Source: a virus. Taken from it: a DNA stretch of 64,000 bases. Position numbers and translations under genes: made by a program. The stretch is taken from IMG/VR virus record IMGVR_UViG_3300009157_000018, positions 1-64,000 of that record; one strand, written 5' to 3'. This document shows, piece after piece, positions 1,319 to 51,688 of this stretch. The number at the start of each line of letters is the position of its first letter. Position 1 is the first letter of the stretch. Under the pieces are notes generated by a model, which saw nothing but the letters and a program-made list of their open reading frames with translations, was not told the origin of the DNA and made no database searches.

Positions 1319-3130
1319 TTGTCGAAGAATACTACTGCTGCTTACAGTTCTTATAGAACTAAGGAGTGGTGGGAATCAGACTGGGACAGATGGTCTGACT
1401 GGGAAGACGAAAGCCGATTGGTGCGGCGGGATAGTTCTGAATACAGTCCGGCAACATCTGGCAAGGGCATGACTGGTTCAGATATCAAACTAGCGGTTGC
1501 TTTGCGATCTGCTAGGGCTATGGTATCCGTTCTAGACACCAATCAGAAAGAGAAGATGTCTGTTGACTTTTTCTCTGAGGGTAGTGGTCAAATTGCGGCA
1601 ACTCTATTGAAGGCAGGGAAGATATTTATATCCGCCCAGCCTATTCTAGATTATCCCGACGATTTTACTACTGCCATTCGTTGTGTCAATGGAGAGACTG
1701 TACATGAAGTTGGTCACTCTGTTGGAACAAGGAAGCGATTAGAGAAAGGCTGTTTCCCAGCTGATACTGGTGACAAGCCCAGGGACACAGTTGTAAGGAC
1801 AATCACTAATGTTCTCGAAGATAATCTTATCGAAAGAGAACAGTTGTCGATCAATCCAGGGTTTAAGAAGCATCTTGATGCGACTTTCGAATGGATTGAG
1901 GAACAGGGATTGGCTGATAAGGACAATATTCAGCCTTGGGACGAAGCAAGTATAGAAGAAAGAACCGGCCACCTAACTCAACTCCTGAGATACAAGGATT
2001 CCACCGATAAGTGGAAGACAATTCCGAGCGATATTCAGGACACTCTCTTGGGTATCAATCAGAAGTATCTCAACTCTCGCGATTCAGAGAAGAAGGGACT
2101 TATCCTGGAGACTCTGGATATCCTAACTAAGGATGCTGAATACGAACCAACTCCTCCACCCGATGGGAATGGAGAAGAACCTGGTGAGGGACAGTCGGGA
2201 GAAGGAGAAGAAGGAAAAGAAGGTCAGGAAGGGAATGGCAAGGAGAAGAAGAATAGTCCTAGGATTATCAATGGCTTGCTTGGGCATCAGTGCCTAGGCA
2301 AAGGAACCACTGAGATTTCCAAGCAACAGGCAATTCGTATTGCTGAGTTGGTGGAACAAGAAGCTGAGTGGCATGATAAGTCTAAGACTCTTATTACTCG
2401 TCCCCCTGTAGAGACTCCCAAAGCGGCTAAGAGAACGCCAGAGGTCAATAAGTTGATCGGAGCAATCCGAGCTCGACCGACGAAGTTCACGAAACCGGCT
2501 AGTCTGCAAAAGTCAGGAACGGTAGATGCGAACAATCTCCATCGAATCTTCTACGATCCGGTGGACTTGCGAGTATTCCATCGCCCTACGATTGCGGGCA
2601 AGACTTGGGCAAGAATCTATCTGTTGGCTGATATGAGTTCTAGTATGAATACTGAACTCGAAACAGTCTACGATTGCGCTGTCATGATGATCTATGCTTT
2701 CAAGGATATGAAAGTAGCCACGAAAGTATACGGGTATACCGATCACAGTAGAATGAATCAAATCTACCGTCTTTGGGAACCCGGAGATAAGATGGAACGG
2801 CTCAATATCATCTTTGAGCAGTATCGCGGCGGCACGCCGACCGGTGATGCTCTGAACTGGGCCGTAGAAAACATCATGAAAGAGTCAGACGGACCAGAAG
2901 AAAAGAAACTGATTATTGTATTGACTGATGGTGCCCCGAACGACCGTGATCTAGTCAAGTCGGTAGTTATCGGCGCGAACAGACGCGGAATCTCCGTTCT
3001 AGAAATCGCAGTCAATACCTTTAGTGAAGAAATGCAGAAAGCGATGTTTGGTAAGAATGTGATTGCCTACCGGTATGGTGGTCCATCACAGACTTCCAAG
3101 CTTGCCAAGTGGCTATCGGAGAATATGTGA
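1319..3130 (+). CDS. CobT-like VWA protein with HEVGH metallopeptidase-like motif
   Basis: A 603-residue protein. The N-terminal half has HEVGH at residues 129-133, the zinc-binding arrangement of metallopeptidase-like domains. A Gly/Glu-rich linker lies at about 280-312. The C-terminal von Willebrand A domain has a complete MIDAS: DMSSSM, a later GGTPTGDAL threonine, and LTDGAP. This layout resembles CobT or DUF2201-type partners of MoxR/CobS ATPases, and a MoxR ATPase is encoded just upstream. Start is TTG at 1319 behind a strong AAGGAGG site. Whether the HEVGH site is catalytic cannot be told from sequence. Confidence 0.85.
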   Translation: MSKNTTAAYSSYRTKEWWESDWDRWSDWEDESRLVRRDSSEYSPATSGKGMTGSDIKLAVALRSARAMVSVLDTNQKEKMSVDFFSEGSGQIAATLLKAGKIFISAQPILDYPDDFTTAIRCVNGETVHEVGHSVGTRKRLEKGCFPADTGDKPRDTVVRTITNVLEDNLIEREQLSINPGFKKHLDATFEWIEEQGLADKDNIQPWDEASIEERTGHLTQLLRYKDSTDKWKTIPSDIQDTLLGINQKYLNSRDSEKKGLILETLDILTKDAEYEPTPPPDGNGEEPGEGQSGEGEEGKEGQEGNGKEKKNSPRIINGLLGHQCLGKGTTEISKQQAIRIAELVEQEAEWHDKSKTLITRPPVETPKAAKRTPEVNKLIGAIRARPTKFTKPASLQKSGTVDANNLHRIFYDPVDLRVFHRPTIAGKTWARIYLLADMSSSMNTELETVYDCAVMMIYAFKDMKVATKVYGYTDHSRMNQIYRLWEPGDKMERLNIIFEQYRGGTPTGDALNWAVENIMKESDGPEEKKLIIVLTDGAPNDRDLVKSVVIGANRRGISVLEIAVNTFSEEMQKAMFGKNVIAYRYGGPSQTSKLAKWLSENM

Positions 3131-4368: not shown

Positions 4369-4731
4369 TTGAATAGAAGTAGCGGGTCAACGGCAACTTT
4401 TATGAAAGAGTTTTATGCTCTTCGAATGAAAGCCTTGGCAATAGCCGAGGTGAAATGTAGAACGGAACCTAGGAACCTATATCCTGATACACAAATGGGA
4501 ATAGATGTTCGCCCCGAGGGCGTTGTCTTTTTCGATCTAGTACCTAGATCATATGATGATGGGGAAGAAGTCGCGGAGATCATCGTATCTTGGGAGGATA
4601 TCGAGGACTCTGGGACTGCCCTAAAGCGGTACAAGGCAACGATTGCTGAACGGGAGAAAGAACAAGAAGCCGAGAGAAAGAAATGGCGAGAAGATCAGTA
4701 CAATCGTCTGAAGAAAGAATTTGGTGATTGA
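4369..4731 (+). CDS. hypothetical protein with charged C-terminal helix
   Basis: 120 residues from a TTG at 4369 with AGGAAGGGA upstream. The central part looks like a small beta-rich domain. The last 35 residues are Lys/Glu/Arg-rich and likely a helix or coiled coil. Its end overlaps the start of the recombinase gene. No known family. Confidence 0.65.
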   Translation: MNRSSGSTATFMKEFYALRMKALAIAEVKCRTEPRNLYPDTQMGIDVRPEGVVFFDLVPRSYDDGEEVAEIIVSWEDIEDSGTALKRYKATIAEREKEQEAERKKWREDQYNRLKKEFGD

Positions 4732-5533
4732 TCAGTTCCTCGCTCAGTATTCCGAAAACACTCGGGATACCTATCGGATCGTGCTATCCGACTTCGGTAA
4801 GTTCCTTGGTCGTGGCCCTGAAACGGCCACTTCCGAGGAGCTTATCCGATACCAAATGAGCATATCCCACCAGGCTAATACAACTGTTGCGAAGAAGATC
4901 GCAGTTCTTTCTTCTTTTTTCCAGTTCGTTTTGTCGATGGGCATAAGGGGCGACAACCCCACTCTTCCTGTTCGTCGCAAGAAGGTGGATGTGTTCAAAA
5001 CAATTCGGTGGCTAGAAGACGATGAAGTTGATGCGTTGCTAGAAGTTGCCGAGGATACTGGGAAACGCGAGTTGGCCCTGGTTTGGCTGGCGCTGCACGG
5101 ACTCCGCGTAAGCGAGATTGTGGGGCTGAATGTCAATCAGTTCAAAACTGGCATTATCTGGAATCTTCTCGGTAAGGGCAATAAGACCAGGATTGTGCCG
5201 ATGACGCTTGCAGCTCAGAACGCAATTCGGGCTTACATTGGCAATAGGAAAAGCGGACCTCTGTTGGTTTCAAGCAGAAAGCAACGTCTTTCCAAGCGCC
5301 AAGCGCAGCGAGATATCTACAACCTGACTGAAAAGGCAGGAAAGAAGATCAACATTCACGGCTTGCGGCATACTTACGGGACTCGGGCCACGCGGCGCGG
5401 TGTTCCAACGGTAACGCTAGCCAAACTAATGGGCCACGCATCTGTGGCAACCACGCAAAAGTATGTTCACTTAGATTCTGGCGACCTACAGGAAGCCAAT
5501 GATCTAATCTATCCATCGGAGGTAGAAGTTTGA
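4721..5533 (+). CDS. tyrosine recombinase (XerC/D- or integrase-like)
   Basis: A 270-residue tyrosine recombinase with a SAM-like N-terminal core-binding domain (about 1-85) and a complete catalytic domain: Arg129 in HGLRVSEI, Lys at 152-155, His213-x-x-Arg216 in HGLRHT, His239 in MGHAS and nucleophile Tyr248. It could integrate the phage, resolve genome multimers or invert a segment. No repressor or excisionase is evident nearby, and no att core could be identified by eye. Start is TTG 4721 or GTG 4724, overlapping the previous gene. Confidence 0.9.
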   Translation: MVIDQFLAQYSENTRDTYRIVLSDFGKFLGRGPETATSEELIRYQMSISHQANTTVAKKIAVLSSFFQFVLSMGIRGDNPTLPVRRKKVDVFKTIRWLEDDEVDALLEVAEDTGKRELALVWLALHGLRVSEIVGLNVNQFKTGIIWNLLGKGNKTRIVPMTLAAQNAIRAYIGNRKSGPLLVSSRKQRLSKRQAQRDIYNLTEKAGKKINIHGLRHTYGTRATRRGVPTVTLAKLMGHASVATTQKYVHLDSGDLQEANDLIYPSEVEV

Positions 5534-13930: not shown

Positions 13931-14683
13931 CTACAGCCACCCTCGATCAAACGGCGTGCGGAACATCTTCTCGGTCAGGAATGGATCGGCTGCCGTTGCT
14001 GGCTTATCGCCCCACTTACGGATAAAGTACTTGTTGTTGGCGTCGTGCGTGATGTGGTTGGCCTTCTCCAGCTCAGGGTCGGACTTGATAGTACGGCTGC
14101 CGTAATGGAAAAACCGCGCCCCTTCGAAGCCGACGGCACGCTTGCCCGCGAGGACGATCCGCCAATGCATGTCCAAATCCTCGTTATAGGCAGGCGCAAA
14201 GGTCTCATCGAAAGGCCCTACTTCCAGGAAGAGGTGGGAATTCACCATAAAGCACGAGAAGTGCGGGGTTTCCGGGGCTTCCGTGGTTTCGGCGGCTTCT
14301 TCCAAGGTTGGGAGGTCGTTCCAAGGAAGGGCTGTCCAAAGGATGATATCGGGAGAAGACTGTTCGGCAAATCGGACAAGGTTATCGACCAGTGTGGAGC
14401 GGAATACGATATCCAAGTTAGGAACAATGACATAATCACACCCTTGTTTCAGTAAGAACTCTATAGCACGATTCCACGCCATTGATACACAGTTGTCTGG
14501 ATTCTCCAAGACAGTCCCCTTGGATTGTAGGTACTGTCGGTACTCAGGCTTAGAAATGAAGTTTTCTACCCCACAGAACACAATCTCGTGGTCTTCACTC
14601 TTAACTGAATCCAATGTTTCCTTCGCGTACTTAAAGTGCTCTTCGTTAGAAATGTACGCTGGGTATCCTATTCCTACCTTCAT
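13931..14683 (-). CDS. GT2-type glycosyltransferase
   Basis: A 250-residue GT-A fold glycosyltransferase. The N-terminus has the GIGYPAY nucleotide-binding strand, a NLD motif follows the central strand (metal and nucleotide-sugar binding), and a later Asn-Glu-Asp-Leu-Asp segment fits the acceptor/base region. It should transfer a sugar from the nucleotide-sugar pathway encoded upstream. The acceptor could be DNA, virion protein or host surface. Confidence 0.8.
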   Translation of the reverse strand: MKVGIGYPAYISNEEHFKYAKETLDSVKSEDHEIVFCGVENFISKPEYRQYLQSKGTVLENPDNCVSMAWNRAIEFLLKQGCDYVIVPNLDIVFRSTLVDNLVRFAEQSSPDIILWTALPWNDLPTLEEAAETTEAPETPHFSCFMVNSHLFLEVGPFDETFAPAYNEDLDMHWRIVLAGKRAVGFEGARFFHYGSRTIKSDPELEKANHITHDANNKYFIRKWGDKPATAADPFLTEKMFRTPFDRGWL

Positions 14684-14901
14684 CTCTTCTCCCGGAAAGA
14701 GATACTCATAATACTAGACCCAGGGTAAACCGTGGCCGGTTTTCCACATACAAACTCATCTATCCATCCAATAGCACCATCAAACGTATAACTTATTCTC
14801 CAATCATTAAACATACAGATATCGGAGCCATCTGCCTGATGTATTACCAGACCATGAGTTGTATTGTCTGGAAACTGAGTCCTATATAATGGGAAGTTCA
14901 T
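14680..14901 (-). CDS. hypothetical protein in sugar cluster
   Basis: 73 residues, beta-rich and aromatic, overlapping both neighbours by four bases. It is embedded between an acetyltransferase and a glycosyltransferase, so probably part of the sugar-modification cluster. No family recognised. Confidence 0.65.
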   Translation of the reverse strand: MNFPLYRTQFPDNTTHGLVIHQADGSDICMFNDWRISYTFDGAIGWIDEFVCGKPATVYPGSSIMSISFREKR

Positions 14902-15407
14902 TCTCTGGCCAACTTCATGGTGATGATTCCATCCTTGTGTTCTACTTCCTTGTATCCGATGCTCTTGTACAGATTAATAGCTGGTTCGTTCGTATCTAAT
15001 ACATCCAACCAAACATCCCCATTGATCGAGGATAGGAACCGGAAGATGATCCTTCCGAAACCAAACCCCCGCATATTGGGGACCACGCCACCTGTTACCA
15101 CCCAGCGCTTCTCACCTAACAAATGCCGTCTGGCCAAGATGCCAAAGCCTAGTAGCATGGCATCCTGCTCAACATATCTATCTCTTAGAGTTTCGAATGG
15201 TATCTCCAGTAGATACGCATTCAGTTCGCTCTTCTTGTGTAATGGCTTATATGTACCATAATACCACATAATCTGCCGCCATACACTAATGTTCGACCGA
15301 TCGTGCGTCATAAATTCACGCATACCATTGCGGAGTTGGCGCAGTTTCATGGCGTCACGAAGACTGCCAATGGGCCTGATGTTATACGCGGTAGATCGAG
15401 TAGTCAT
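14898..15407 (-). CDS. GNAT-family N-acetyltransferase
   Basis: 169 residues. The acetyl-CoA motif is PNMRGFGFGRII and the C-terminal strand-helix is the typical DTNEPAINLYKSIGYKEV region (written in two parts). In this cluster it may N-acetylate the amino sugar made by the DegT-type aminotransferase. It overlaps the glycosyltransferase gene by 26 bases. Confidence 0.85.
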   Translation of the reverse strand: MTTRSTAYNIRPIGSLRDAMKLRQLRNGMREFMTHDRSNISVWRQIMWYYGTYKPLHKKSELNAYLLEIPFETLRDRYVEQDAMLLGFGILARRHLLGEKRWVVTGGVVPNMRGFGFGRIIFRFLSSINGDVWLDVLDTNEPAINLYKSIGYKEVEHKDGIITMKLARE

Positions 15408-16218
15408 TGTTCACCTTTATCGGCATCAGGTTTTTCTGATCGCGGTACTCTGTCAACCACTGTCGTTCAGCCTCTAGATAGACGGCCATCCCTGCGTTCT
15501 GGCCGGGGTCGAGGCCCCACTTGTTGCACCACACACGCATGTCTGCCTCAAACCTAGGTTCAGCCACTAAGGTCGTTCCGCCGAGGTGATCGATATCAAT
15601 TCCCAGGACAGCTACCCGGTAATCGGCCTCTACGGCACGCATAGGCAGGATTTTGTCCCAAAAATGCGCCGGCGGCACACTATCCGGGATGTCAAGCTTA
15701 GGAATAACGCCCTTACGGAAGGCCATAAACATGGAATCGAGGATCAAAGCTGATTGAAGGTCCCTGATGCGCTTACCCGTGTGCTCTTGGAGTTGGCCGC
15801 GTGATCCATTAAAGTTGCACATTGTCCCGCCGCCGCGCCCACCCATGATATCCACCTCATTGGACCCGCAGAATCCAACAACGCCTAACTTGGGGTCATC
15901 TTCGAAGAAGAACCGCAGACGCTCGTCCCAGCCGTACTCGTAGACAAACACGTCGTTGTGCATGATTGCGATGATTTCAGCATTCGCCCAGCGTGCCTGG
16001 AGCTGGGTGATTGGGAAGTAAAAGCCTTTGTTATCCTCGTTTCGAAGAACACTCGCACTGAAGGGCAAGTCATCGGGTAGGACATACGGTTCGTCAGAGG
16101 CATTGTCAATGACGACAAGATGAAAGTCGGCGGCGCCCTGAACAGACTTCACCAAGAAGTCAATGCATTCGTTGGTAATCTCTGGCCTGTTAAGGACTGG
16201 GATGCCCAGAACAATCAT
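15382..16218 (-). CDS. GT2-type glycosyltransferase
   Basis: A 278-residue GT2 enzyme: N-terminal GIPVLNRPE strand, DNAS after the second strand, and a H-N-D motif in the DxD position. I chose ATG 16218 because it overlaps the stop of the small membrane gene (ATGA); an ATG at 16230 is also in frame. It likely acts with the second GT2 and the dehydratase/aminotransferase pair. Confidence 0.8.
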   Translation of the reverse strand: MIVLGIPVLNRPEITNECIDFLVKSVQGAADFHLVVIDNASDEPYVLPDDLPFSASVLRNEDNKGFYFPITQLQARWANAEIIAIMHNDVFVYEYGWDERLRFFFEDDPKLGVVGFCGSNEVDIMGGRGGGTMCNFNGSRGQLQEHTGKRIRDLQSALILDSMFMAFRKGVIPKLDIPDSVPPAHFWDKILPMRAVEADYRVAVLGIDIDHLGGTTLVAEPRFEADMRVWCNKWGLDPGQNAGMAVYLEAERQWLTEYRDQKNLMPIKVNNDYSIYRV

Positions 16219-16352
16219 TGACAACACCATCTGATGAATGCATCAGCCAGTTCACCGCCATGAGATATAAGGAAGACCAGTAGAGCACCTAGTAAAATCC
16301 ATACTAGACATCCGAGTGAATCTACTTTTATTGTAGTCCCGTCATCACTCAT
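16215..16352 (-). CDS. small single-span membrane protein
   Basis: 45 residues from ATG 16352: a short acidic N-terminus, a hydrophobic span of about 19 residues, then a polar tail with paired cysteines. The ATGA overlap with the downstream glycosyltransferase and tight spacing to the gene upstream support it as real. It may anchor the sugar-transfer machinery to the membrane. Confidence 0.6.
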   Translation of the reverse strand: MSDDGTTIKVDSLGCLVWILLGALLVFLISHGGELADAFIRWCCQ

Positions 16353-16355
16353 GGA

Positions 16356-16604
16356 TCACACCAATGCTCCCCATAGGTGGACGGCCCACATCGGGATGCA
16401 CGCACAATAGAGTGGATCGGCGTGGCATCGACGGCAAACTTCATAACCGGCGTCCCAATCGAACACCCGACCATATCCGCACCGACAGCCGCCGCTAGAA
16501 GGCACGGACCCGGCCAGATTCGGAGTCAATAGACGCGGCAAGAGAACACCGCGTCGGTGGTAGCCATACATCTGGCATCGGTGGCAGCGGTAGTGCCTAA
16601 TCAT
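16356..16604 (-). CDS. cysteine-rich zinc-binding-like protein
   Basis: 82 residues with CHRC, CRC, CRRC and CAC clusters plus histidines, arranged like two zinc knuckles. It starts in an ATGA overlap with the aminotransferase gene. Function unknown. Confidence 0.6.
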   Translation of the reverse strand: MIRHYRCHRCQMYGYHRRGVLLPRLLTPNLAGSVPSSGGCRCGYGRVFDWDAGYEVCRRCHADPLYCACIPMWAVHLWGALV

Positions 16605-17719
16605 ACGAAATCATTAGCAGCATCAATCACTTGTGCTGTCTCTTCTTCGGTTAGCGCACTGTGAACAGGTATGTTCATCATCCGTTCGGTGTAGTAGTCC
16701 ACTCCGGTTAGCCGATCAGCACGTGCGGCGCTGAAAAACTTCTTGAACACTGATAGCCGGTCGTTGCGCCAATGCACCTGTGAAACCTCAACCCCCCGCT
16801 CGGCCATGTGCTGGCGGAACGCGTCTTGCATCCCGGCTCGGGGCAGGATCAGGGTGTAAAGCCAGTTTGCCGACTGGGCTCCGTAGGGAACTTCCCGATC
16901 GCGGCGGTACGCCTCGTCGAGGTGTGCGTCGTAACGGGCCGCGTTAAGGCGTTGCGCTTCGAGGACCTCCTCAAGATACTTCAGCTGCACGAGTCCTATG
17001 GCTGCGTTAAGGTCATTCATGTGGAACTTATAGCCCCAGTCAGCAACATCGAGGGAGCCCCTGAAGTCGGTGGTGTTCTCGCGATCCACGCCAAACCACC
17101 GCAAAAGCTTGCCCTTGCGGTAATCACTCAAGTATTTGTAGGCCAGAGCACCTCCGTCCACCGTCGTAATCGACTTAATGGCTTGGAAACTGAAGGCTGT
17201 AAAGTCGGCAAGGTCGGCATTCCCGACCGGTACCTTCTCGTACTTGGCTCCGAACGAATGGGCAGCGTCAGAGATAAACCGAATCTCCTTCGCCAAGGTC
17301 AGGTCGCTTAGCATGGTGTAATCCACCGGCAAACCACCCCAATCCACGGTCAGGATTGCCTTGGTCTTCTCGGTAATCTTCTCTGCGACGCTGTTAATGT
17401 CGATTAGGCCAGTGATCGGGTGAACGTCGGCCCAGACGATCTTGGCACCGAAAGCCATGATCGGGACATTAGACGCTACACATGTCATCGGTGTGGCAAT
17501 AACCTCATCACCAGGCTTAACATGTGCCAGTCGAAGTGCAAGCGTGATGGCCGAAGTACCAGAGTTGAGGGATGTAACCTGATTGTTACCAAGTATCCTG
17601 CTCAGTTCCCATTCAAACTCGTCAACCTTTGGTCCCTGCGTAACATACCCGCTATGGAGAACATCGAGTACTGCGTCGTCCACCTCAGGTGGCATCAGTA
17701 CCCTAAATAGTTTTATCAT
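16601..17719 (-). CDS. DegT/DnrJ/EryC1-type sugar aminotransferase
   Basis: A 372-residue PLP enzyme. The N-terminal NSGTSA cofactor-phosphate site, DAAHS at 151-155 and the Schiff-base Lys182 in FQAIKS are typical of sugar aminotransferases that convert 4-keto or 3-keto nucleotide sugars to amino sugars using glutamate. The 4,6-dehydratase encoded upstream would supply a 4-keto substrate. Full length for the family. Confidence 0.9.
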   Translation of the reverse strand: MIKLFRVLMPPEVDDAVLDVLHSGYVTQGPKVDEFEWELSRILGNNQVTSLNSGTSAITLALRLAHVKPGDEVIATPMTCVASNVPIMAFGAKIVWADVHPITGLIDINSVAEKITEKTKAILTVDWGGLPVDYTMLSDLTLAKEIRFISDAAHSFGAKYEKVPVGNADLADFTAFSFQAIKSITTVDGGALAYKYLSDYRKGKLLRWFGVDRENTTDFRGSLDVADWGYKFHMNDLNAAIGLVQLKYLEEVLEAQRLNAARYDAHLDEAYRRDREVPYGAQSANWLYTLILPRAGMQDAFRQHMAERGVEVSQVHWRNDRLSVFKKFFSAARADRLTGVDYYTERMMNIPVHSALTEEETAQVIDAANDFV

Positions 17720-17856
17720 TCTGGTTTATCTTCTACATGCTCCCCATTGCGACAGCCCTCGCACCGTATCAGGTCTGAGATAACTACCTTCTCAGCACAC
17801 AAACACTCTGGGCACAAACATTCTATGATTACCTTGCCGTCTACTATCTCAGCCAT
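17716..17856 (-). CDS. zinc-ribbon microprotein
   Basis: 46 residues from ATG 17856. CLCPECLC and CEGC pairs about 18 residues apart look like a zinc ribbon. The stop overlaps the aminotransferase start (ATGA). It overlaps the end of the LAGLIDADG gene by eight bases. Confidence 0.6.
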   Translation of the reverse strand: MAEIVDGKVIIECLCPECLCAEKVVISDLIRCEGCRNGEHVEDKPE

Positions 17857-18361
17857 TCAGGGTGCCTCGAATTAGCAGATCATCAATTCTTCTGCCACTT
17901 ACCCCACGAACCTGCCCGTTATACAGTAAGTACTTTAGTGTTCTCAGGTTTCGTCCAGTATATTGCGACACCTCTACGAGAGACATCGCCAGATCATCTC
18001 GTAGCCTTCTGATAAACAATAATTCTTCTCTTGGTATATGGGTGCGATAACCAAGTTTTGAATCTAACAGAGCCAAGGCCGTGGTAGCCTTATCGCGATT
18101 GACTATTAGATACGGCATCATTCCATTTATCATATCTATACAATCCTTAGTTCTTCCAACCCGGAGTCTAGAGGCAGCATCCACATTGTCATATATGCTA
18201 GACCTAATGCCATTAGCGCTTAGAAAGAACTGTATATCCTCAAGGACTTTCCTACTCTTCTTCTGCGATATGTCTAATCTAACACTAGTATCTTGATAGG
18301 TGTAAACACAGCCCTCTCCGTCGAAGAACCCAGCGATGTATTCCCAGTTCATCTCATCCAC
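17849..18361 (-). CDS. LAGLIDADG-type homing endonuclease
   Basis: 170 residues. YIAGFFDGEG at 8-17 is the LAGLIDADG helix with its catalytic acidic residues; only one copy is seen, so it should act as a dimer. The C-terminal region has a helix-turn-helix-like segment. No intron or intein is visible around it, so it is free-standing and may be a mobile insertion in the sugar cluster. It overlaps the dehydratase gene by 13 bases. Confidence 0.8.
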   Translation of the reverse strand: MDEMNWEYIAGFFDGEGCVYTYQDTSVRLDISQKKSRKVLEDIQFFLSANGIRSSIYDNVDAASRLRVGRTKDCIDMINGMMPYLIVNRDKATTALALLDSKLGYRTHIPREELLFIRRLRDDLAMSLVEVSQYTGRNLRTLKYLLYNGQVRGVSGRRIDDLLIRGTLNG

Positions 18362-19350
18362 TCAACGTGGCGAAGGGTCCAGTCGATAGTCTTTTCTAGC
18401 GACTCATAGAGGGGAATGGGAGGAGCCCACCCTTGACCTCGTAACAGGGTGTCATCTAATGCATACCTGGGATCGTGTCCAGGCCGCTGCTGATGAAAGT
18501 CCTCTAACTGGTACCGTAGTTCCTTTCCCATGATCTCAGCGATCATCTCTGCCAGCTCCAAGTTATCTATCTCCCGTTCCCCCCTGACATTCCAACGATC
18601 CGGGCGATCTACTACGCCACGGTCAAACATGGAAGGAGCCATGGTCTTCGTGAGATAGAGCAAGGCATCCGCGTGGTTCCGAGCATGGAGATAGAAGCGC
18701 GAACCAATATCCCCAGGCTTACCGTGAACCGTAACTGACTGTCCGTGAAAGATACGAGAAATGCACATCGGCACGAACTTCTCCGGGTCTTGGCGCTCGC
18801 CAATCATGTTCATCGTGTTAGTGATGACCAGAGGAACACCGTAAGTTCGCCAGTACGATATGGCTATGGCTTCCTGAGCCGCCTTGGAACCGGAATACGG
18901 ATTGGATGGGATGATCGTTGACCACTCGACAAAGTTCTCGTCGTGAGGTGCTGGTCCGTACACTTCATCGGTAGAAACTTGGATAAAGACGCTGGGCTTG
19001 ACAGCTCTGGCGTACTCCAACATCGTAATGACCGACGACACATTGTTCTCGATAAACGGTCTAGGGTCTTCGATGGAGCGGTCTACATGCGAGTCCGACG
19101 CGAGGTTCCACACATAGTCGATGGGTCCGATCTTCTCGACAAGTCGAGGGCTTATGTCGCTTCGAAGGTCGCAGTACTCGACAGTGACCCGCTTGGGGTC
19201 CCACACGTCGAGATCGAGCCGCAGCGAATCTCCCTTATGCCGGAAGGTTGCAAGGCCCACGATCTCCCAGTCGGTGTTCGATAGCACATGCTCCAAGGCG
19301 TGGCTGCCCGCAAACCCAGCTATGCCTGTCAACAAGAGCCGTTTACTCAT
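18349..19350 (-). CDS. nucleotide-sugar 4,6-dehydratase (RmlB-like)
   Basis: 333 residues of the extended SDR family. The NAD site GxxGxxG is Gly9-Gly12-Gly15. The active site has Thr127-Asp128-Glu129 (TDEVYG) and Tyr152-x3-Lys156 (YSGSK), as in dTDP-glucose or GDP-mannose 4,6-dehydratases. It would make a 4-keto-6-deoxy sugar nucleotide for the aminotransferase downstream. Start ATG 19350, eight bases inside the DnaB gene end; a longer frame upstream lies within DnaB and is a shadow. Confidence 0.88.
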   Translation of the reverse strand: MSKRLLLTGIAGFAGSHALEHVLSNTDWEIVGLATFRHKGDSLRLDLDVWDPKRVTVEYCDLRSDISPRLVEKIGPIDYVWNLASDSHVDRSIEDPRPFIENNVSSVITMLEYARAVKPSVFIQVSTDEVYGPAPHDENFVEWSTIIPSNPYSGSKAAQEAIAISYWRTYGVPLVITNTMNMIGERQDPEKFVPMCISRIFHGQSVTVHGKPGDIGSRFYLHARNHADALLYLTKTMAPSMFDRGVVDRPDRWNVRGEREIDNLELAEMIAEIMGKELRYQLEDFHQQRPGHDPRYALDDTLLRGQGWAPPIPLYESLEKTIDWTLRHVEWMR

Positions 19351-34933: not shown

Positions 34934-35007
34934 TGGAGCCGCAGCGAGGAATTGAACCCCGATTCACCGCTTACAAGGCGGGTTTCTTGCCGTTAGAAGA
35001 CGGCGGC
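34934..35007 (-). tRNA. tRNA-Thr (TGT)
   Basis: Cloverleaf with T-arm GGGGTTCAATTCC, anticodon loop CTTGTAA and encoded CCA. One C-T mismatch in the acceptor (6-67). Confidence 0.85.
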
Positions 35008-35020
35008 TCGCGTGTTAGAA

Positions 35021-35308
35021 CTAGGGCGCGGGCTCAGGCTCGGGCTCTGGCTCTGGCTCAGGTGCGGGAGCCGGGGAAACGGCTTCCGTGATCGCGTCAA
35101 TGTCCGCGTCAGCCTCTTCGGCTGTGACAAGTAGAGCGTCGATCTGCTCCTGGGTGACGGCGCCTGCCATCAGTTCGTCAAGTTGTGCCTGTAGTTCGGC
35201 CAACTTTGCGCTTGCGTCGGCTGATGCAGCCATAACTGCATCAAATGCTGCCTGTGAGCTTGTCTTAAGGTCTTCTAGCTCTGCTGATAGTGCTGTAATA
35301 TCTGCCAT
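35021..35308 (-). CDS. coiled-coil protein with Pro-Glu repeat tail
   Basis: 95 residues from ATG 35308 (GGAG upstream). An Ala/Leu/Asp-rich coiled coil is followed by a tail of about eight Pro-Glu dipeptides. Extended forms starting further upstream cross the promoter and are less likely. Small structural or fibre-associated role possible; unknown. Confidence 0.65.
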   Translation of the reverse strand: MADITALSAELEDLKTSSQAAFDAVMAASADASAKLAELQAQLDELMAGAVTQEQIDALLVTAEEADADIDAITEAVSPAPAPEPEPEPEPEPAP

Positions 35309-35480
35309 TATTGTCTCCGTGTTTTCAAGGATTTGTAACTGTAATCGGTTTTTCTGGGAATTCCGTTTCCCACCCCACAATGAGTCCCAGAAATTCTCTG
35401 GTTGCCCACCACGGTCTTTATTTCTATCTACTTTACTCGTATCGGTCCCCCTTTCTCTGGAGGATAACTGCTCCTATAAC

Positions 35481-35508
35481 AGTATACCACATACCTCCAT
35501 CCTGTCAA
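35481..35508 (-). promoter_or_regulatory. sigma70-type promoter with extended -10
   Basis: Minus strand TTGACA (35503-35508), 16-base spacer, TATACT (35481-35486) preceded by TGTGG. A near-consensus promoter just after tRNA-Thr(CGT), driving the coiled-coil gene and tRNA-Thr(TGT). Confidence 0.85.
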
Positions 35509-35514
35509 TAGATT

Positions 35515-35589
35515 TGGAGGACCAGTTGGGGGTCGAACCCAAGTCGTCGGTTTACGAAACCGGCATCCTAGCCACTAGACGACTGATCC
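35515..35589 (-). tRNA. tRNA-Thr (CGT)
   Basis: Anticodon loop TTCGTAA, seven-pair acceptor GGATCAG/CTGGTCC, encoded CCA. Its 5' 15 bases overlap the end of the nucleotidase gene, including its TAG stop. Confidence 0.9.
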
Positions 35590-36129
35590 CCTGATAATTT
35601 TTCGCACCTGAGGCCATGAGGAGGCCCTAGGAAGCCCGCTAAGGTCCGTAGTGAGGTTGTGCGCCCTAGCAAATAAAATTGCCTTCCTGTCGGATTCCAG
35701 GAACTCTAGGCAATTTTGAGGCTTGTCATCAACAAGCAATTCTGCGTCAGTAAAATCGATCTTCCGATCTTTAGGCCCGACGATGGTGACTCTCTGGAAT
35801 TGAGGGCGCCATTTGCCGAGCCACTTCCAAGTGTTGTACTCGGCCCATTGGGGCTTGGAGGTAACGCATTCTAGATAATGACCTTCCCGCCGTAATCGAT
35901 CTAAGGTTCCGATTGCTCCGTCTACGGCAGGGAAGGTATGCCATAACCATTCTCGTTCTCGTAGCCATGTCCACCAGTTCTGTCCAATGATAGGATCAAG
36001 GATAGGATGTAGGTCCCACTGATAGATATCTTCTTCGGAAAGAACTACACCGTACTCCTTCTTAACAGAGTCGCGGAGTCCCCCCACAAAATCTAGAACA
36101 GTATCGTCTAGATCGATTGCCAAATGCAT
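35575..36129 (-). CDS. 5'(3')-deoxyribonucleotidase-like HAD hydrolase
   Basis: 184 residues. The HAD nucleophile motif DLDDT (Asp6, Asp8) is at the N-terminus, then a small cap and a later LLVDDKPQN motif IV. Such enzymes dephosphorylate dNMPs and adjust nucleotide pools. Its last codons and TAG stop are inside tRNA-Thr(CGT). Confidence 0.85.
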   Translation of the reverse strand: MHLAIDLDDTVLDFVGGLRDSVKKEYGVVLSEEDIYQWDLHPILDPIIGQNWWTWLREREWLWHTFPAVDGAIGTLDRLRREGHYLECVTSKPQWAEYNTWKWLGKWRPQFQRVTIVGPKDRKIDFTDAELLVDDKPQNCLEFLESDRKAILFARAHNLTTDLSGLPRASSWPQVRKIIRGSVV

Positions 36130-36311
36130 TACTTCGACTTGATTTCGACTATTTCAACGGCTTCTGTAGGATTGAAGTCCCAGATCGAAACATCATCTAA
36201 TCCAAGTCCTGTTCCATTTTTCTCAATCAATTCCTTGAGCACGAGGGCTTCAATGCCTCCGTGGACCGCGATCTCGTAAGAGATCGTAGCCTTGACAACG
36301 GAATCTACCAC
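36129..36311 (-). CDS. small hypothetical protein
   Basis: 60 acidic residues, strand-rich, with stop overlapping the nucleotidase start. Tight spacing suggests it belongs with the nucleotide-metabolism genes around it. No domain recognised. Confidence 0.6.
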   Translation of the reverse strand: MVDSVVKATISYEIAVHGGIEALVLKELIEKNGTGLGLDDVSIWDFNPTEAVEIVEIKSK

Positions 36312-36677
36312 TTACTTTCCTTCCTCTTCATCGTGAAGAATCTTCGAAGCCACGAATTCCCCAGCCATGATATTGAACATCACGGCAGCCGCGTGGTCTT
36401 CGTCTGTTTCCCCCGTCGCCCATTGTATCAGATGCCGCAAAGCCGACGAGCGATAGCGTGCTAGTTCTTCTTCTCCTCTCGCCATCTCCCAATTGCGAGC
36501 GTCGTATTTCTCAGCTCCCCTGGTCATCAGGTCTGCAAATCGCGTTAGCATCTGCTCATGATACGGAACGCCGAGCGGAAATAAGAGATCGAATCTGGCT
36601 TTCCCATCCTCGGTATCGCGTACCATTCCGCTCTCGTACTCGCTACGCTTGCCAGAATCCTTGGTAATCCTTGTCAT
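36312..36677 (-). CDS. dATP/dGTP diphosphohydrolase-like protein (DUF5664-type)
   Basis: 121 residues from ATG 36677 with GGGAAGGT upstream. The sequence GAEKYDARNWEMARG and the helix carrying H-L-I-Q-W...D-E-D-H-A are hallmarks of DUF5664 proteins, relatives of the MazG-like dNTP pyrophosphohydrolase fold. Likely a nucleotide-pool enzyme beside the nucleotidase. Confidence 0.75.
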   Translation of the reverse strand: MTRITKDSGKRSEYESGMVRDTEDGKARFDLLFPLGVPYHEQMLTRFADLMTRGAEKYDARNWEMARGEEELARYRSSALRHLIQWATGETDEDHAAAVMFNIMAGEFVASKILHDEEEGK

Positions 36678-36840
36678 ACCTTCCCTTATCATCGTAGAAC
36701 TGTGGTTGCTGGTAATCCTTGTGGGTGTGACGATCCTTGGTGTTGTTGGTTCTAGAGCGAGAAGCATCACAGCATTTAATCCCACCAGGACAAGAGGGGA
36801 ACATATAAGTCTTGGGCTTATGCCTCTTGAAATTAGCCAT
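36643..36840 (-). CDS. hypothetical protein with Cys cluster
   Basis: 65 residues from ATG 36840 (AAGGTGAG upstream), very polar, with CPGGIKCC and many Asp, Lys and Tyr residues. It overlaps the DUF5664 gene by 35 bases. Function unknown. Confidence 0.6.
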   Translation of the reverse strand: MANFKRHKPKTYMFPSCPGGIKCCDASRSRTNNTKDRHTHKDYQQPQFYDDKGRYDKDYQGFWQA

Positions 36841-36857
36841 CAACTCACCTTTAGTAT

Positions 36858-36933
36858 TGGTACCGCCCCAGAGAATCGAACTCTGCTGCATCTATATGTA
36901 ACATAGAGGCCCCCACCAGAAGGCAAGGGCGGT
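36858..36933 (-). tRNA. tRNA-Val (TAC)
   Basis: Acceptor ACCGCCC/GGGCGGT, anticodon loop GTTACAT, T-arm with TTCGATT and encoded CCA. Confidence 0.9.
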
Positions 36934-36935
36934 AT

Positions 36936-37009
36936 TGGAGCCGGAGCTGGGAGTCGAACCCAAACTGAATCCTTACCAAGGATTTAGTCTACCGTTAACT
37001 TACACCGAC
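36936..37009 (-). tRNA. tRNA-Thr (GGT)
   Basis: Anticodon loop TTGGTAA, T-arm TTCGACT, encoded CCA. Third Thr isoacceptor. Bases T8-A9-A10 form the stop codon of the upstream small gene. Confidence 0.9.
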
Positions 37010-37188
37010 TTGTTGTTTTCTTCTTCCCTCTTTAGAATACGAAGACAGGATTCGCACGACTTCTCGTCGGCAGGCAGTTCCGCTGCAGTCTTCGAATCCA
37101 TATATCCCCACTTACCACAATATGCTTTCGGAAGACCAATGCGGCTCTGAAACCGCTCGACATGCCAACTCTTAATAAGGAACCACAT
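37000..37188 (-). CDS. small zinc-binding-like protein
   Basis: 62 residues with HVER, a lone CGK and CESC, a spacing seen in small phage zinc-binding proteins. It ends 10 bases inside tRNA-Thr(GGT), using the tRNA's T8-A9-A10 as stop codon. Confidence 0.65.
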   Translation of the reverse strand: MWFLIKSWHVERFQSRIGLPKAYCGKWGYMDSKTAAELPADEKSCESCLRILKREEENNKSV

Positions 37189-37190
37189 CT

Positions 37191-37370
37191 TTATTGAATC
37201 CCTGACTTACAATTCTTAGCTGCCGCGTGGCTGTTCTGGAACGCTCGTTCCTCGGAGTCACCATTCGCAATCGTCTTGTTGAAGACGCGCATGAATACTT
37301 GCTGACAACGAGTAGTGGTATATTCCTTTTTTACAGCCTCGGGAAGCTCCTCTGTCTTAGAATATGGCAC
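37191..37370 (-). CDS. ChaB-family protein
   Basis: 59 residues from GTG 37370. The start PYSKTEELPEAVKK, the following Q-Q-V-F-x-R-V-F-N and the EERAFQNSHAAAKN helix match the ChaB family fold. ChaB proteins accompany cation-transport regulators in bacteria and occur in many phages with unknown function. It is directly after the stop of the gene upstream and before the small zinc protein. Confidence 0.75.
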   Translation of the reverse strand: MPYSKTEELPEAVKKEYTTTRCQQVFMRVFNKTIANGDSEERAFQNSHAAAKNCKSGIQ

Positions 37371-37565
37371 TTACTTTACCTTCCTGAAAGAATCTTCATA
37401 ATTCGATCTCCATTTCCGTACCTCGCTAGGGCTTGGAAGTCCTGGTATATGCACAATCTCGCCAAAAGGTTCAGCGTAAGGATCGTAGTCTTCCTCTTCG
37501 CGCTTGCGTTCCCAAGCAAGTAGTCTCAGAAGAAACCACCGACCTATGCCTTTTATATCGCGCAT
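37371..37565 (-). CDS. small hypothetical basic protein
   Basis: 64 residues from ATG 37565 with AGGAGG upstream. Trp- and Arg-rich N-terminal helix, then Pro/Tyr/Glu segment. The stop is followed immediately by the ChaB start. Confidence 0.65.
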   Translation of the reverse strand: MRDIKGIGRWFLLRLLAWERKREEEDYDPYAEPFGEIVHIPGLPSPSEVRKWRSNYEDSFRKVK

Positions 37566-37575
37566 GTCCTGCCTC

Positions 37576-37917
37576 CTAGGGTATTTGGGTCTTTTTATTA
37601 GTGTAGCCTCTAGTGTGTGTTCTGATGCGGTGACAGTTGGAGCAGACCACATCGCACTTGACTATCTCCAATTGTAGGCGCTCAATAGACATAGAGGAGG
37701 CTCTGACTGACCCTATCGCGAATTCCTTGTCGCCCCTATGGTCGAAGTCCATGACATATGGTGGGTAACTTTCCCCGCAGTCGGCACATGGCTTGCTTTT
37801 CGCTGCATCGATATAAGCTCTAGTGCGTGCCCGTGCGCGAAGGTTGGAGTCAATGTATTTCTCCTTGTTCGCCTCATAATGAGCACGATAAGATTCCTGT
37901 GATGCCCAACCGCTCAT
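37576..37917 (-). CDS. HNH endonuclease
   Basis: 113 residues. The CADC pair, FDHRGDK (HNH histidine) and CSNCH pair give a zinc-bound HNH nuclease of the homing type, with a basic helical N-terminus. It lies at the edge of the tRNA cluster and may be a mobile nuclease. Confidence 0.85.
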   Translation of the reverse strand: MSGWASQESYRAHYEANKEKYIDSNLRARARTRAYIDAAKSKPCADCGESYPPYVMDFDHRGDKEFAIGSVRASSMSIERLQLEIVKCDVVCSNCHRIRTHTRGYTNKKTQIP

Positions 37918-37935
37918 GGTCGCCTTCTATAAAGT

Positions 37936-38012
37936 TGGTCTGGGAGGCTGGGATCGAACCAGCGACCTTCTGCTCCCAAAGCAGACGCGCTACCTGGCTG
38001 CGCTACACCCAG
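37936..38012 (-). tRNA. tRNA-Pro (TGG)
   Basis: Anticodon loop TTTGGGA with stem TCTGC/GCAGA, T-arm GCTGG/CCAGC, encoded CCA. Preceded by TTAGCGT. Confidence 0.9.
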
Positions 38013-38020
38013 ACGCTAAT

Positions 38021-38092
38021 TGGAGAGAGGGGGCACGATCCCCTGACGAGGGGCTATCACCCTCGCTTGGTCCCAACCAACATGGCTCTCCA
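38021..38092 (-). ncRNA. tRNA-like cloverleaf lacking tRNA consensus bases
   Basis: Four good stems: TGGAGAG/CTCTCCA acceptor, TTGG/CCAA D-stem, GAGGG/CCCTC and AGGGG/CCCCT. Base 8 is C, base 33 is G, and the T-loop is ATCGTGC, so the universal tRNA signals are missing, although D-loop GG and T-loop TC remain. No CCA is encoded. Could be a tRNA pseudogene or a tRNA-mimic RNA. Confidence 0.5.
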
Positions 38093-38228
38093 TTGAAATC
38101 CCGGCTACACGGCATTACGCCTTACCACTGCCCCAAACGAAGGAGCACCCACCTTCCTTACCGGGTGCGCGTAGCAGCGGCCTCACGGCTCACACTCCAC
38201 GCTACCGTGGGAGTCACCCACGAATTAT
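38093..38228 (-). ncRNA. hairpin-rich non-coding segment
   Basis: No convincing frame. The minus strand folds into local hairpins: CGTGGG/CCCACG, GTAGC/GCTAC, GCACCC/GGGTGC and a GGC/GCC stem. Possibly a processed RNA or tRNA remnant between tRNA-Phe and the cloverleaf. Confidence 0.4.
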
Positions 38229-38304
38229 TGGTGCTACCGGACGGGATCGAACCGCCGACGCTCTGCTCTTCAAGCAGACGCTCTACCTACTGAGCTACAG
38301 TAGC
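38229..38304 (-). tRNA. tRNA-Phe (GAA)
   Basis: Anticodon loop TTGAAGA, stem TCTGC/GCAGA, D-arm GCTC/GAGC, T-arm TTCGATC, encoded CCA. Confidence 0.92.
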
Positions 38305-38306
38305 AC

Positions 38307-38390
38307 TGGTGGTACTCCAGGGATTCGAACCCCGATAGCCAAGACGACTGCTTTACACGCAGTTGATTTCACCCACTTACCATGAGTACC
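38307..38390 (-). tRNA. tRNA-Tyr (GTA)
   Basis: Anticodon loop GTGTAAA, long variable arm, acceptor GGTACTC/GAGTACC, encoded CCA. Confidence 0.92.
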
Positions 38391-38392
38391 AT

Positions 38393-38464
38393 TGGCGCCG
38401 CCAGAAGGACTCGAACCCTCAATAAAAGCTTAGAACACTTCGACCCATCCAATGGGATGGCGGC
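38393..38464 (-). tRNA. tRNA-Arg (TCT)
   Basis: Anticodon loop GTTCTAA, acceptor GCCGCCA/TGGCGGC, T-arm TTCGAGT, encoded CCA. Anticodon stem has two G-U pairs. Confidence 0.85.
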
Positions 38465-38472
38465 GTATTTTG

Positions 38473-38625
38473 TTACGGAGTGAGTGCGCTCAGTGCTAGA
38501 GCAACCAGCACTAGCCCAACCCATCCTAGTTTGATGGTGCTAGTTCCCAACTTGAAATCGATAGCCTCTAGTCCAAATAGGATTGCGGCTATGATATACA
38601 TAATTAGATCAGGAGTAACGTCCAT
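38473..38625 (-). CDS. small membrane protein
   Basis: 50 residues from ATG 38625, with GAGGG upstream. Two hydrophobic segments (about 9-20 and 34-47). It starts MDVTP, sharing its first residues with the adjacent peptide, and starts one base after that gene's stop. Possibly a holin-like or membrane-modifying protein; unknown. Confidence 0.6.
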   Translation of the reverse strand: MDVTPDLIMYIIAAILFGLEAIDFKLGTSTIKLGWVGLVLVALALSALTP

Positions 38626-38697
38626 TTATACCCTCTTTGCGAAGAAGATGATCGCTAAGATCACCAATATGATAATCAGAATTGTTACTACGTCCAT
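38626..38697 (-). CDS. 23-residue transmembrane peptide
   Basis: ATG 38697 with AGAGGTGAG upstream. Sequence is MDVV followed by an almost pure Ile/Leu/Val/Phe span and a basic AKRV end. The strong ribosome site and coupling to the next gene support it. Confidence 0.5.
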   Translation of the reverse strand: MDVVTILIIILVILAIIFFAKRV

Positions 38698-38704
38698 TTT
38701 CTCA

Positions 38705-38858
38705 CCTCTGTTGTGCCGGTAACGAGACTTCCGGCTCGGAACCTACCGCCAGAGCGATGCCGACGAGGGCCTTCCCGAGATGGCTTCTGGCTTATACCTC
38801 GGTACACATGACCCAACCGCTTACGGGGACCACGTGGTAGTCCTTGGGAGCGGGGTTA
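38705..38858 (-). ncRNA. hairpin-rich non-coding segment
   Basis: No frame found. Minus-strand hairpins include GCCGG/CCGGC (38715-38735), CCGAG/CTCGG (38775-38802), CCG-TAAG-CGG and a CCACGTGG palindrome. Lies between tRNA-Ser and the small membrane genes. Confidence 0.4.
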
Positions 38859-38860
38859 AT

Positions 38861-38948
38861 TGGCGGAAGGCCAAGGAATCGAACCTTGGCTGGTGTTACC
38901 CAGGCTACTGTTCAGCAAACAGACACATTACCGCTCTGTCAACCTTCC
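38861..38948 (-). tRNA. tRNA-Ser (GCT)
   Basis: Anticodon loop TTGCTGA, long variable arm, acceptor GGAAGGT/GCCTTCC, G73, encoded CCA. Confidence 0.9.
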
Positions 38949-38950
38949 GT

Positions 38951-39026: not shown

Positions 39027-39029
39027 ATT

Positions 39030-39103: not shown

Positions 39104-39110
39104 TTGTTAA

Positions 39111-50042: not shown

Positions 50043-50450
50043 CTAATCCTTCCGTGTCAATGCTAATATCAATCGCGACTGGCCCATCGCTTCTCCTGGG
50101 TCCTCGTTAAAGAGGAAATTCCATTGAACCCCATCCATCTCAACATAGTCACAGTTGTTCAAGGTGCTTCGGTAGCGGGCATCCACCTTGACAGAACACT
50201 GTCCCAAGAAGGTAAGGCCACCAGCCACCGGGTTCCATCGCTTCACTGCACCAGGCTGGTAATAACTTGTTATGTAGATTGGAGTCCACTTATTGTCATA
50301 GCCTGTCCCATCGCAATGATCACACTCAATGTTGACAGCTACATTGCCGAGGGCGTTGAGGCCGCCGCAGACCGCGCAGAAGACGAGTTCCTCTTCCGGG
50401 GTTCTTGCATAGGCGATGATTGTTTTTGGTCGCTTAAAACTGGTTGGCAT
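50043..50450 (-). CDS. head-tail connector-region protein with zinc-ribbon-like cysteines
   Basis: 135 residues from ATG 50450 (GAGGCGAC upstream). CAVC and CDHC pairs suggest a zinc ribbon in the N-terminal half; beta-rich C-terminus. It overlaps the end of the glycosyltransferase gene by 112 bases. Position suggests a head completion (stopper-like) role. Confidence 0.65.
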   Translation of the reverse strand: MPTSFKRPKTIIAYARTPEEELVFCAVCGGLNALGNVAVNIECDHCDGTGYDNKWTPIYITSYYQPGAVKRWNPVAGGLTFLGQCSVKVDARYRSTLNNCDYVEMDGVQWNFLFNEDPGEAMGQSRLILALTRKD

Positions 50451-51688
50451 GTCGCCTCGATGATCTTCTGTAATTCCTGAGCTTTGGATTCCCATGTATG
50501 CGGAATAGCCCACTTGTGTGCCCGCTCAACCGTTTCGGCTACATGCTCAGGATGCGTATACACAAATTCCAGTTGCTCTGCTAGCGAGCGCCAAGAAGGC
50601 TTCGCGAAGAAGGAATACGCTGCCATGTTGCCAGGTTCATAATCCTGTACATCAATGAAATACCCTCGCCCGCGTTCGTGGAGCTCAACCTGAGGCCCAA
50701 ATTTAGTCGCGATCACTGGCGTCTTGGTAATCATGGCTTCTAGGCTTGGAAGGCCGAAGCCTTCGCCACGTGTTGGGAAAGCCAACACATCAGCCGCGTT
50801 ATAGAAGATGTTCATCTCTTCGTCGGTAAAGATGTTGGCGTTCTGCATCAGAACCGCATCAACCAACCCGTAAATGTCCCGGAGGTTAAATAGCGACCAC
50901 CCACCGTGGGTCGGACTCATCGGATTAGCCGAAGTATGAGGGATAAGGAACATTTCCTTATCAGGATGGAGTTTTCGAAACTCCATATAGCCCTTAAACA
51001 GAGTAGGAATGTCCTTACGCCATTGATTCGTGCCAACGAAGTAAACTAGGAACTTGTCTCTGAAATCAGGGATTACTGATCCCCGATTGTACTTACGGAA
51101 CACATCGCTGAGTTCCTTCTTGGCCTGTTCCTTAGGAATCGGGAAGTAAACTTTCGGATCGTATCCGTGATACAGGACCGGCATCTTCTCGAAGTCCGGG
51201 GAAGTCCGGGCCATCATTGCCTTTTGCCAGTAGGAATACGAAATCACTTCATCGAAGTTGGCCGCGATATCAGCGAACGCTGGAGGAAATGGCTCCGAAT
51301 CCATAGGCGAGTAAATGATCTTCTTAGCCCGATGCTTACCCAGAGGAGTAAGTTCTTTCGTTTCCCGGTCGCCCAAATAACGCATTACCACAGGGAAGTC
51401 GTTATTGATAAAGATTACATCTGGATCAAAGGTGCGAACCCACGCATTGGACTTGGTGTAACCAAACGGGTCCATCGCGTTATACATACCTGTCGGATCG
51501 GGAGAATAGAATCCAGCTGGGACCAACTTCCACGGAGTAGTTACCGGCTCCAGGTCATTGTAGTTAATGCCCAAGTGCAGAATCTCGTATTTCCCTGTCT
51601 TATACAGGTTTGTAAGTAAGCCCTTGGCAACTATGCCAAACCCAGTGCGTCCATGGTCACCGATGTACATCAATTTCAGTTTTTCCAA
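50339..51688 (-). CDS. GT4-type glycosyltransferase
   Basis: 449 residues, GT-B fold. The donor-binding motif GEGFGLPSLEAM is near residue 318, and an EX7E-like pattern is seen. The last ~37 residues are Ser/Arg-rich and lie over the next gene. It sits among connector genes with its own promoter, so it may glycosylate virion proteins. Confidence 0.85.
   Translation of the reverse strand: MEKLKLMYIGDHGRTGFGIVAKGLLTNLYKTGKYEILHLGINYNDLEPVTTPWKLVPAGFYSPDPTGMYNAMDPFGYTKSNAWVRTFDPDVIFINNDFPVVMRYLGDRETKELTPLGKHRAKKIIYSPMDSEPFPPAFADIAANFDEVISYSYWQKAMMARTSPDFEKMPVLYHGYDPKVYFPIPKEQAKKELSDVFRKYNRGSVIPDFRDKFLVYFVGTNQWRKDIPTLFKGYMEFRKLHPDKEMFLIPHTSANPMSPTHGGWSLFNLRDIYGLVDAVLMQNANIFTDEEMNIFYNAADVLAFPTRGEGFGLPSLEAMITKTPVIATKFGPQVELHERGRGYFIDVQDYEPGNMAAYSFFAKPSWRSLAEQLEFVYTHPEHVAETVERAHKWAIPHTWESKAQELQKIIEATCQPVLSDQKQSSPMQEPRKRNSSSARSAAASTPSAM

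Follow-up and report, generated by a model that had tools for sequence, protein, structure and literature searches.

Whether a phage can supply a rare sugar of its own, and to what that sugar would be attached, is the question raised by an operon in IMG/VR virus record IMGVR_UViG_3300009157_000018. The record is 91,461 bases long, and the window analyzed here is the stretch formed by its bases 1-64000. The operon lies at 13931-19350 on the minus strand. The initial annotation proposed that its enzymes, together with a glycosyltransferase encoded elsewhere, could make and transfer a 4- or 3-acetamido-6-deoxy sugar starting from a host nucleotide sugar. The results described below favor a phage pathway that would both make one activated rare acetamido sugar and attach it, with the virion as the most likely target, and this account is judged fairly probable. 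Its chemistry, taken separately, is considered likely; the virion as target has roughly an even chance.

Enzymes encoded by the operon

The first enzyme is a short-chain dehydrogenase/reductase (SDR) of 333 aa (18349..19350, PF16363, E-value 9e-43), whose ATG lies within the 3' end of dnaB. Its best NCBIfam profile is TIGR01181, dTDP-glucose 4,6-dehydratase (218 bits), followed at a distance by LegB (85 bits), CDP-glucose (58 bits) and GDP-mannose (42 bits) dehydratase profiles, and the closest solved chains are dTDP-glucose dehydratases (161-163 bits). The protein carries STDEVYG, NPYSGSK and RPGHDPRYA. Among viral loci with a related gene set, referred to here as the cassette, STDEVYG, NPYxxSK and RPGHDxRYA are present in all eight SDRs when full open reading frames (ORFs) are used; an earlier count over 40 SDR loci, based on partly cut translations, gave TDE in 28 and RPGHDxRY in 17. 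We take TDE and YxxxK to be the catalytic motifs, and RPGHDxRYA to be a signature, of dTDP-glucose 4,6-dehydratase (RmlB).

The second enzyme is a DegT-family aminotransferase dependent on pyridoxal phosphate (PLP), 372 aa long (16601..17719), which scores 263 bits on PF01041 against a cut-off of 19.8 (5e-78). The PLP-binding Asp of (S/E/V)D(A/S)AH and the Schiff-base Lys of (F/L)QAIK are kept in 10 of 10 cassette DegTs. The best-scoring functional profiles all describe C-4 enzymes, namely PseC, ArnB, LegC (156 bits) and WecE-type proteins. The closest solved chains are 4zwv and 4xau, both deposited as "putative aminotransferase" and presumably AtmS13, and CalS13 (4zas). On these comparisons, the protein is probably a C-4 aminotransferase of a nucleoside diphosphate (NDP)-4-keto-6-deoxyhexose.

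The third enzyme, a GNAT of 169 aa (14898..15407), is a probable sugar 4-N-acetyltransferase. Its AlphaFold 2 (AF2) model shows a confident GNAT fold (pLDDT 91.3), and GNAT genes are found near related DegT genes. The PseH equivalog score is 15 bits against a cut-off of 93, and in fold comparison PseH (4ri1) appears at Z 15.5, rmsd 2.9 over 142 aligned residues, within a tied list of matches. Fold comparison was also tried as a route to the substrate, and it singled none out.

Two GT2 glycosyltransferases complete the set. GT2b (282 aa, 15382..16230) scores 33.0 bits on PF00535 against a cut-off of 23.3 (7e-8). GT2a (250 aa, 13931..14683) remains below the cut-off on PF10111 (24.3 vs 27.3 bits, 3e-5) and matches phrog_29879, "galactosyl transferase" (7e-22); it has homologues in other cassettes. 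A sequence search of solved structures gave no match for GT2a and chance-like rows only for GT2b. Polypeptide GalNAc-transferases head the fold ranking of GT2b (Z 17.2, rmsd 3.6, 236 aligned), in a list that still stands at Z 15.0 at row 50 and includes polysaccharide synthases and others; with a middling model (pLDDT 77.5, five models spanning 46-77), this likeness is a hint only.

The operon holds every enzyme that had been listed for it, all on the minus strand. The order after dnaB (20764-19343, minus strand, directly ahead of the cassette) is SDR, LAGLIDADG ORF, DegT, 82-aa ORF, GT2b, GNAT, 73-aa ORF and GT2a, and downstream of GT2a an 80-aa ORF precedes a resolvase-like gene. Overlaps of 4-26 bases occur at six of the eight junctions between dnaB and GT2a, and gaps of 129 and 125 bases separate the genes at the other two. 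The LAGLIDADG ORF, the 82-aa and 73-aa ORFs and the SDR start inside the end of dnaB are additions to the earlier gene list. The free-standing LAGLIDADG ORF within the operon (17849..18361, PF14528, 8e-9), between the dehydratase and aminotransferase genes, is probably a homing endonuclease outside the pathway. Family searches found no match for the Cys-rich 82-aa ORF (16356..16604) or the 73-aa ORF (14680..14901). The GT4 glycosyltransferase that had been placed in the head region is indeed encoded (449 aa, 50339..51688, minus strand; PF00534, 3e-11; phrog_2170, 1e-34). It lies in the virion-gene region, 31 kb from the operon; "head region" is approximate, as a distance of 6.7 kb separates it from the gene for the major capsid protein (59444-58416).

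Recurrence of the gene set in other viral contigs

Relatives of the three DegTs used to scan viral contigs numbered 221, of which the best 80 were kept, and cassettes were called by running profiles over these 80 loci and by pairwise comparison with the proteins of the window. Homologues of all six genes (SDR, DegT, GT2b, GNAT, GT2a and GT4) share one locus in L073, L197, L198, L199, L200 and L207, and because this holds in six other viral contigs the set is not a chance neighborhood. Being closely related, L197-L200 represent about one lineage. Partial sets were found in L037 (five of the six homologues, without the RmlB-type SDR), in L206 (DegT, GT2b, GT2a and GT4) and on the 5.4-kb contig L205 (SDR, DegT and the start of GT2b). 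A scan seeded on the GNAT returned only the contig of L037 again. Gene order is DegT-GT2b-GNAT-GT2a-SDR-GT4 in L197-L200 and L207, the GT4 relatives of L197-L200 adjoining the SDR, and GT4-SDR-GT2a-DegT-GT2b-GNAT in L073. Identity to the window proteins is 54-64% for SDR, 45-52% for DegT, 34-48% for GT2b, 30-35% for GNAT, 27-42% for GT2a and 26-29% for GT4, the GT4 match in L073 spanning just 45 residues.

The phages that carry these sets differ, since the terminase-like and capsid proteins of the window have no match in the records of L037 or L073 and the large terminase subunits (TerL) near the sets fall best into different PHROGs: phrog_675 in L202 (the contig of L037), phrog_38 in L205 and L206, phrog_3717 in L207 and, weakly, phrog_7579 in L200. 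The DegT tree, for which the 75 best of the 141 distinct sequences were used, contains an all-phage group with 9 of the 10 cassette rows (modest support of 91/78, long branches, midpoint root), and L037 falls just outside it. The window and L205 branch together among the SDRs (100/92), and among the DegTs the window groups with L205 and L206 (99/93); this shared pairing is as expected for genes inherited together. Across 78 viral loci, with distances measured between stop-to-stop ORFs, a GNAT lies on the same strand within 300 bases of DegT in 38 and within 1.5 kb in 51; two GNAT matches lie elsewhere.

Two further observations concern these contigs. A phage GroEL gene (phrog_5725) stands directly ahead of the sugar cassette in L198 (2922-4544) and L207 (6674-8260), and in L197, L199 and L200 the beginning of the ORF ahead of the cassette looks like that of the GroEL ORF. 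Many other viral contigs (L208-L276) carry a more distant DegT (about 37-41% identical), frequently accompanied by a nearby GNAT and, upstream, by two GT4s; these are probably other sugar cassettes.

The sugar and its precursor

The proposed pathway would begin with the RmlB-like SDR, which would convert a host NDP-glucose, most likely dTDP-glucose, to NDP-4-keto-6-deoxyglucose. DegT would aminate this intermediate at C-4, and the GNAT would acetylate the amine to give a dTDP-4-acetamido-4,6-dideoxyhexose of the Qui4NAc/viosamine or Fuc4NAc type. The GT2 and GT4 enzymes would then build a short glycan with the acetamido sugar. The acceptor would most likely be a protein of the virion, and the modification would take place in the cytoplasm of the host. 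We infer the nucleotide, the regiochemistry, the GNAT substrate, the order of transfer and the acceptor.

Protein families, catalytic motifs, the recurrence of the gene set and the lack of a nucleotidyltransferase match uphold the proposal of a make-and-transfer pathway for an acetamido-deoxy sugar. As for the position of the acetamido group, the 4-acetamido half of the original alternative is favored and the 3-acetamido half is less likely, because DegT scores best on C-4 aminotransferase profiles (all below cut-off) and the FdtA ketoisomerase (PF05523) has no match in the 91,461-base record. This genome family search, like those cited below, was not strict: with PF00535 it missed GT2b, which hmmscan finds. 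Over 10 records, PF05523 matched the cultured phage Zuko and the record of L037, where the match is weak and lies at a distance from the cassette.

The nucleotidyltransferase reported as missing was sought as well, and none was found in the record, either by PF00483 or by a local three-sequence profile over its 602 ORFs of at least 60 aa. PF00483 also gave no match in the record of L073, and a nucleotidyltransferase was found in none of seven further cassette records (5-38 kb, several of them short fragments). Over 10 records, PF00483 matched that of L037 and cyanophage S-SM2. Host dTDP-glucose is a likely input given that this phage, the L073 record and the seven further records yielded no nucleotidyltransferase, and on sequence comparison it appears to be the likeliest host substrate.

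Bacterial relatives of DegT point in the same direction. DegT lies between rmlA and rmlB in L110, where rmlB is cut off at the end of the stretch, and the orders rmlC-rmlD-rmlB-glycosyltransferase-DegT and rmlD-rmlC-GNAT-DegT occur in L115 and L130; rml names were assigned by NCBIfam and confirmed in this way for these three loci only. Among 22 bacterial loci whose DegT is at least 42% identical, seven have a GNAT starting within 2.3 kb and five an Rml-type gene above 100 bits within 6 kb, the count for L129 resting on an SDR of 107 bits that is possibly something else. None of the 22 has a UDP-glucose dehydrogenase (UGDH)-type gene within 6 kb, a match in L121 being about 7 kb away. The other 58 bacterial loci, including L130, gave 4 with GNAT, 11 with Rml-type and 5 with UGDH-type genes. 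The bacterial rml neighborhoods, the pairing with GNAT and the lack of an FdtA match in this phage together suggest a dTDP-4-acetamido-4,6-dideoxyhexose as product.

A different NDP-sugar is an unlikely alternative, in which the substrate of DegT would be a UDP- or TDP-linked 4-keto-pentose or some other 4-keto sugar, and the SDR would have drifted to a different NDP-sugar. DegT also resembles ArnB (170 bits), and an excerpt of a review has AtmS13, presumably the protein of its closest solved chains, postulated to aminate TDP-4-keto-pentose at C-4. The UGDH-like gene inside the L037 cassette and the distance of the phage SDR clade from bacterial RmlB would fit this alternative too. However, the window SDR retains TDE and RPGHDxRYA and prefers the dTDP-glucose profile, and UGDH-type genes within 6 kb were seen in none of the 22 more similar bacterial loci and in 5 of the 58 others described above.

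The acceptor

Virion decoration is suggested by where the sets lie in relatives. The L073 set is between the major capsid gene and later tail genes, and the L207 set has GroEL before it and the small terminase subunit (TerS), TerL and portal genes after it. The L205 and L206 sets follow TerL and portal, the L037/L202 set precedes TerL, and the L200 set precedes a weakly matched TerL. These are positions at which virion-modifying genes are expected, and they support a virion target by gene position alone. No hydropathy window above 1.6 was found in the cassette proteins, which fits cytoplasmic work.

The same kind of sugar could instead be destined for phage DNA, with the glycosyltransferases modifying bases and shielding the genome from restriction. 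The operon lies between dnaB and a resolvase-like gene, another part of the record encodes a C5 cytosine methylase, and phage glycosyltransferases are known to glycosylate DNA, according to excerpts of PMC12619734. This target is nevertheless rated improbable. A gene of the thymidylate synthase/hydroxymethylase type (PF00303) was not found in the 91,461-base record by the non-strict search, Tet_JBP (PF12851) had no match in seven records (likewise non-strict, and with a weak control), and only 2 of 8 cassette records match the C5 methylase. The sets of relatives, moreover, adjoin head genes.

The host surface is given the same low rating. There, the sugar would alter receptors or exclude other phages, as in serotype conversion. 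A temperate life is permitted by an integrase gene (4721-5533, PF00589, 2e-32), and serotype change by the glycosyltransferases of such phages is known (PMC12619734). The cassette proteins, however, lack membrane-like stretches, and the sets of relatives adjoin packaging genes.

Weight of the proposed pathway

A number of findings count against the virion-sugar pathway. The operon of the window itself lies in a replication module, away from the head genes. DegT remains under every functional cut-off (PseC 233 of 423.5 bits, ArnB 170 of 631, WecE 141.5 of 375), and the SDR score on TIGR01181 is below the equivalog cut-off of 365 bits. In an SDR tree of 45 rows, 36 phage SDRs form a group of their own (100/100), separate from eight bacterial rows of RmlB type and a further viral row; because of this separate clade and the unmet cut-off, the protein is named RmlB-like and not RmlB, and the specificity of the SDR may be shifted. 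Within that tree the cassette SDRs lie among other phage SDRs and do not form one resolved clade. The SDR family is also wider than the cassette: in 36 loci fetched by SDR, no DegT scored more than 250 bits on the cassette profile, and any DegT they contain is more distant. The sequence of the GNAT matches its family weakly (PF13508, 2e-4, under the Pfam cut-off), and the fold comparison yields a tie over Z 17.4-15.0, with SpeG-type enzymes first. A GNAT lies within 300 bases of DegT in only 9 of 80 bacterial relatives (11 within 1.5 kb, two elsewhere). Finally, L037 has another SDR, the UGDH-like gene, an RmlA-like nucleotidyltransferase (228 bits vs a cut-off of 361) and a second DegT, besides the weak FdtA match elsewhere in its record; given the other SDR, the second DegT and the RmlA-like and UGDH-like genes, its sugar may be different.

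If the proposed pathway is correct, phages could pick a glycan that their host need not make. A dedicated, recurring cassette for sugar synthesis would mean that some phages select their own sugar, beyond what the host supplies. The cassette also offers a small, testable enzyme set and a gene signature for spotting probably glycosylated virions in metagenomes.

Other features of the record

The record has several features outside the operon. The middle of a ThyX-type thymidylate synthase gene (record 66762-68273; L071:3763-5274) matches both an HNH domain and an intein splicing domain. Matches to the C5 cytosine methylase (record about 72.9-74.2 kb; L071:9893-11187) are split over two overlapping reading frames, reflecting a frameshift or an unusual gene arrangement. 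A nearly full set of tRNA genes, 29 by ARAGORN and 25 by Rfam, is interspersed with protein genes at 34934-47226. At 22-927 there is a MoxR/CbbQ-like AAA ATPase gene, and the gene that follows it, at 1319-3130, encodes a von Willebrand A domain.

Comparison with known systems

Among the open-access papers searched, none was recognized as describing such a set of genes for a phage. Bacterial routes to dTDP-Qui4NAc and dTDP-Fuc4NAc use RmlB, then a VioA- or WecE-type aminotransferase and then an acetyltransferase. The same three steps are proposed for the phage, and bacterial DegT relatives adjoin rml genes and GNATs; the phage enzymes differ in scoring under the equivalog cut-offs, and no rmlA was found in the phage.

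Cultured phages carry looser parallels. Flavobacterium phage vB_FspM_immuto (NC_055915) has glycosyltransferases, two WecE-type aminotransferase genes, an epimerase and a "pilin glycosylation protein". Its DegT is 37% identical to that of the window, but gene order and content differ, and the fetched stretch matches the window only by DegT and part of GT2a. Cyanophage S-SM2 has a looser sugar cluster. Streptomyces phage Zuko (NC_070829; L068, L192) encodes an RmlB-like SDR (47%) and then a glycosyltransferase, two genes before TerL, perhaps for another virion sugar in a cultured phage. Zuko probably makes a different sugar, as it has no DegT match and carries its FdtA-like gene elsewhere.

Virion glycosylation in mycobacteriophages was reportedly described by Freeman in 2023. 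In mycobacteriophages, glycosyltransferases have been connected with the glycosylation of capsid and tail tube proteins (cited in PMC12619734 and PMC13313380). Such glycans are thought to shield the particles from recognition. The excerpts of these two papers name glycosyltransferases and a methyltransferase and, unlike the system proposed here, no dedicated amino-sugar pathway.

The closest known viral counterpart, going by excerpts of PMC4691112, is the UDP-D-viosamine pathway of mimivirus, in which R141, L136 and L142 lead to UDP-4-N-acetyl-viosamine. Both viruses encode a 4,6-dehydratase, a PLP-dependent sugar aminotransferase and a 4-N-acetyltransferase clustered with glycosyltransferases, the phage as families only. 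The mimivirus set yields a virus-borne acetylated 4-amino-4,6-dideoxy sugar, and the phage set would do likewise. Mimivirus differs as a eukaryotic giant virus with UDP-linked intermediates and a eukaryotic-type dehydratase (PMC4691112). It is tentatively suggested, with somewhat less than an even chance of being right, that several phage lineages share and co-inherit a compact cassette that turns host dTDP-glucose into a rare 4-acetamido-4,6-dideoxy sugar on their own virions, a phage counterpart of the giant-virus viosamine pathway.

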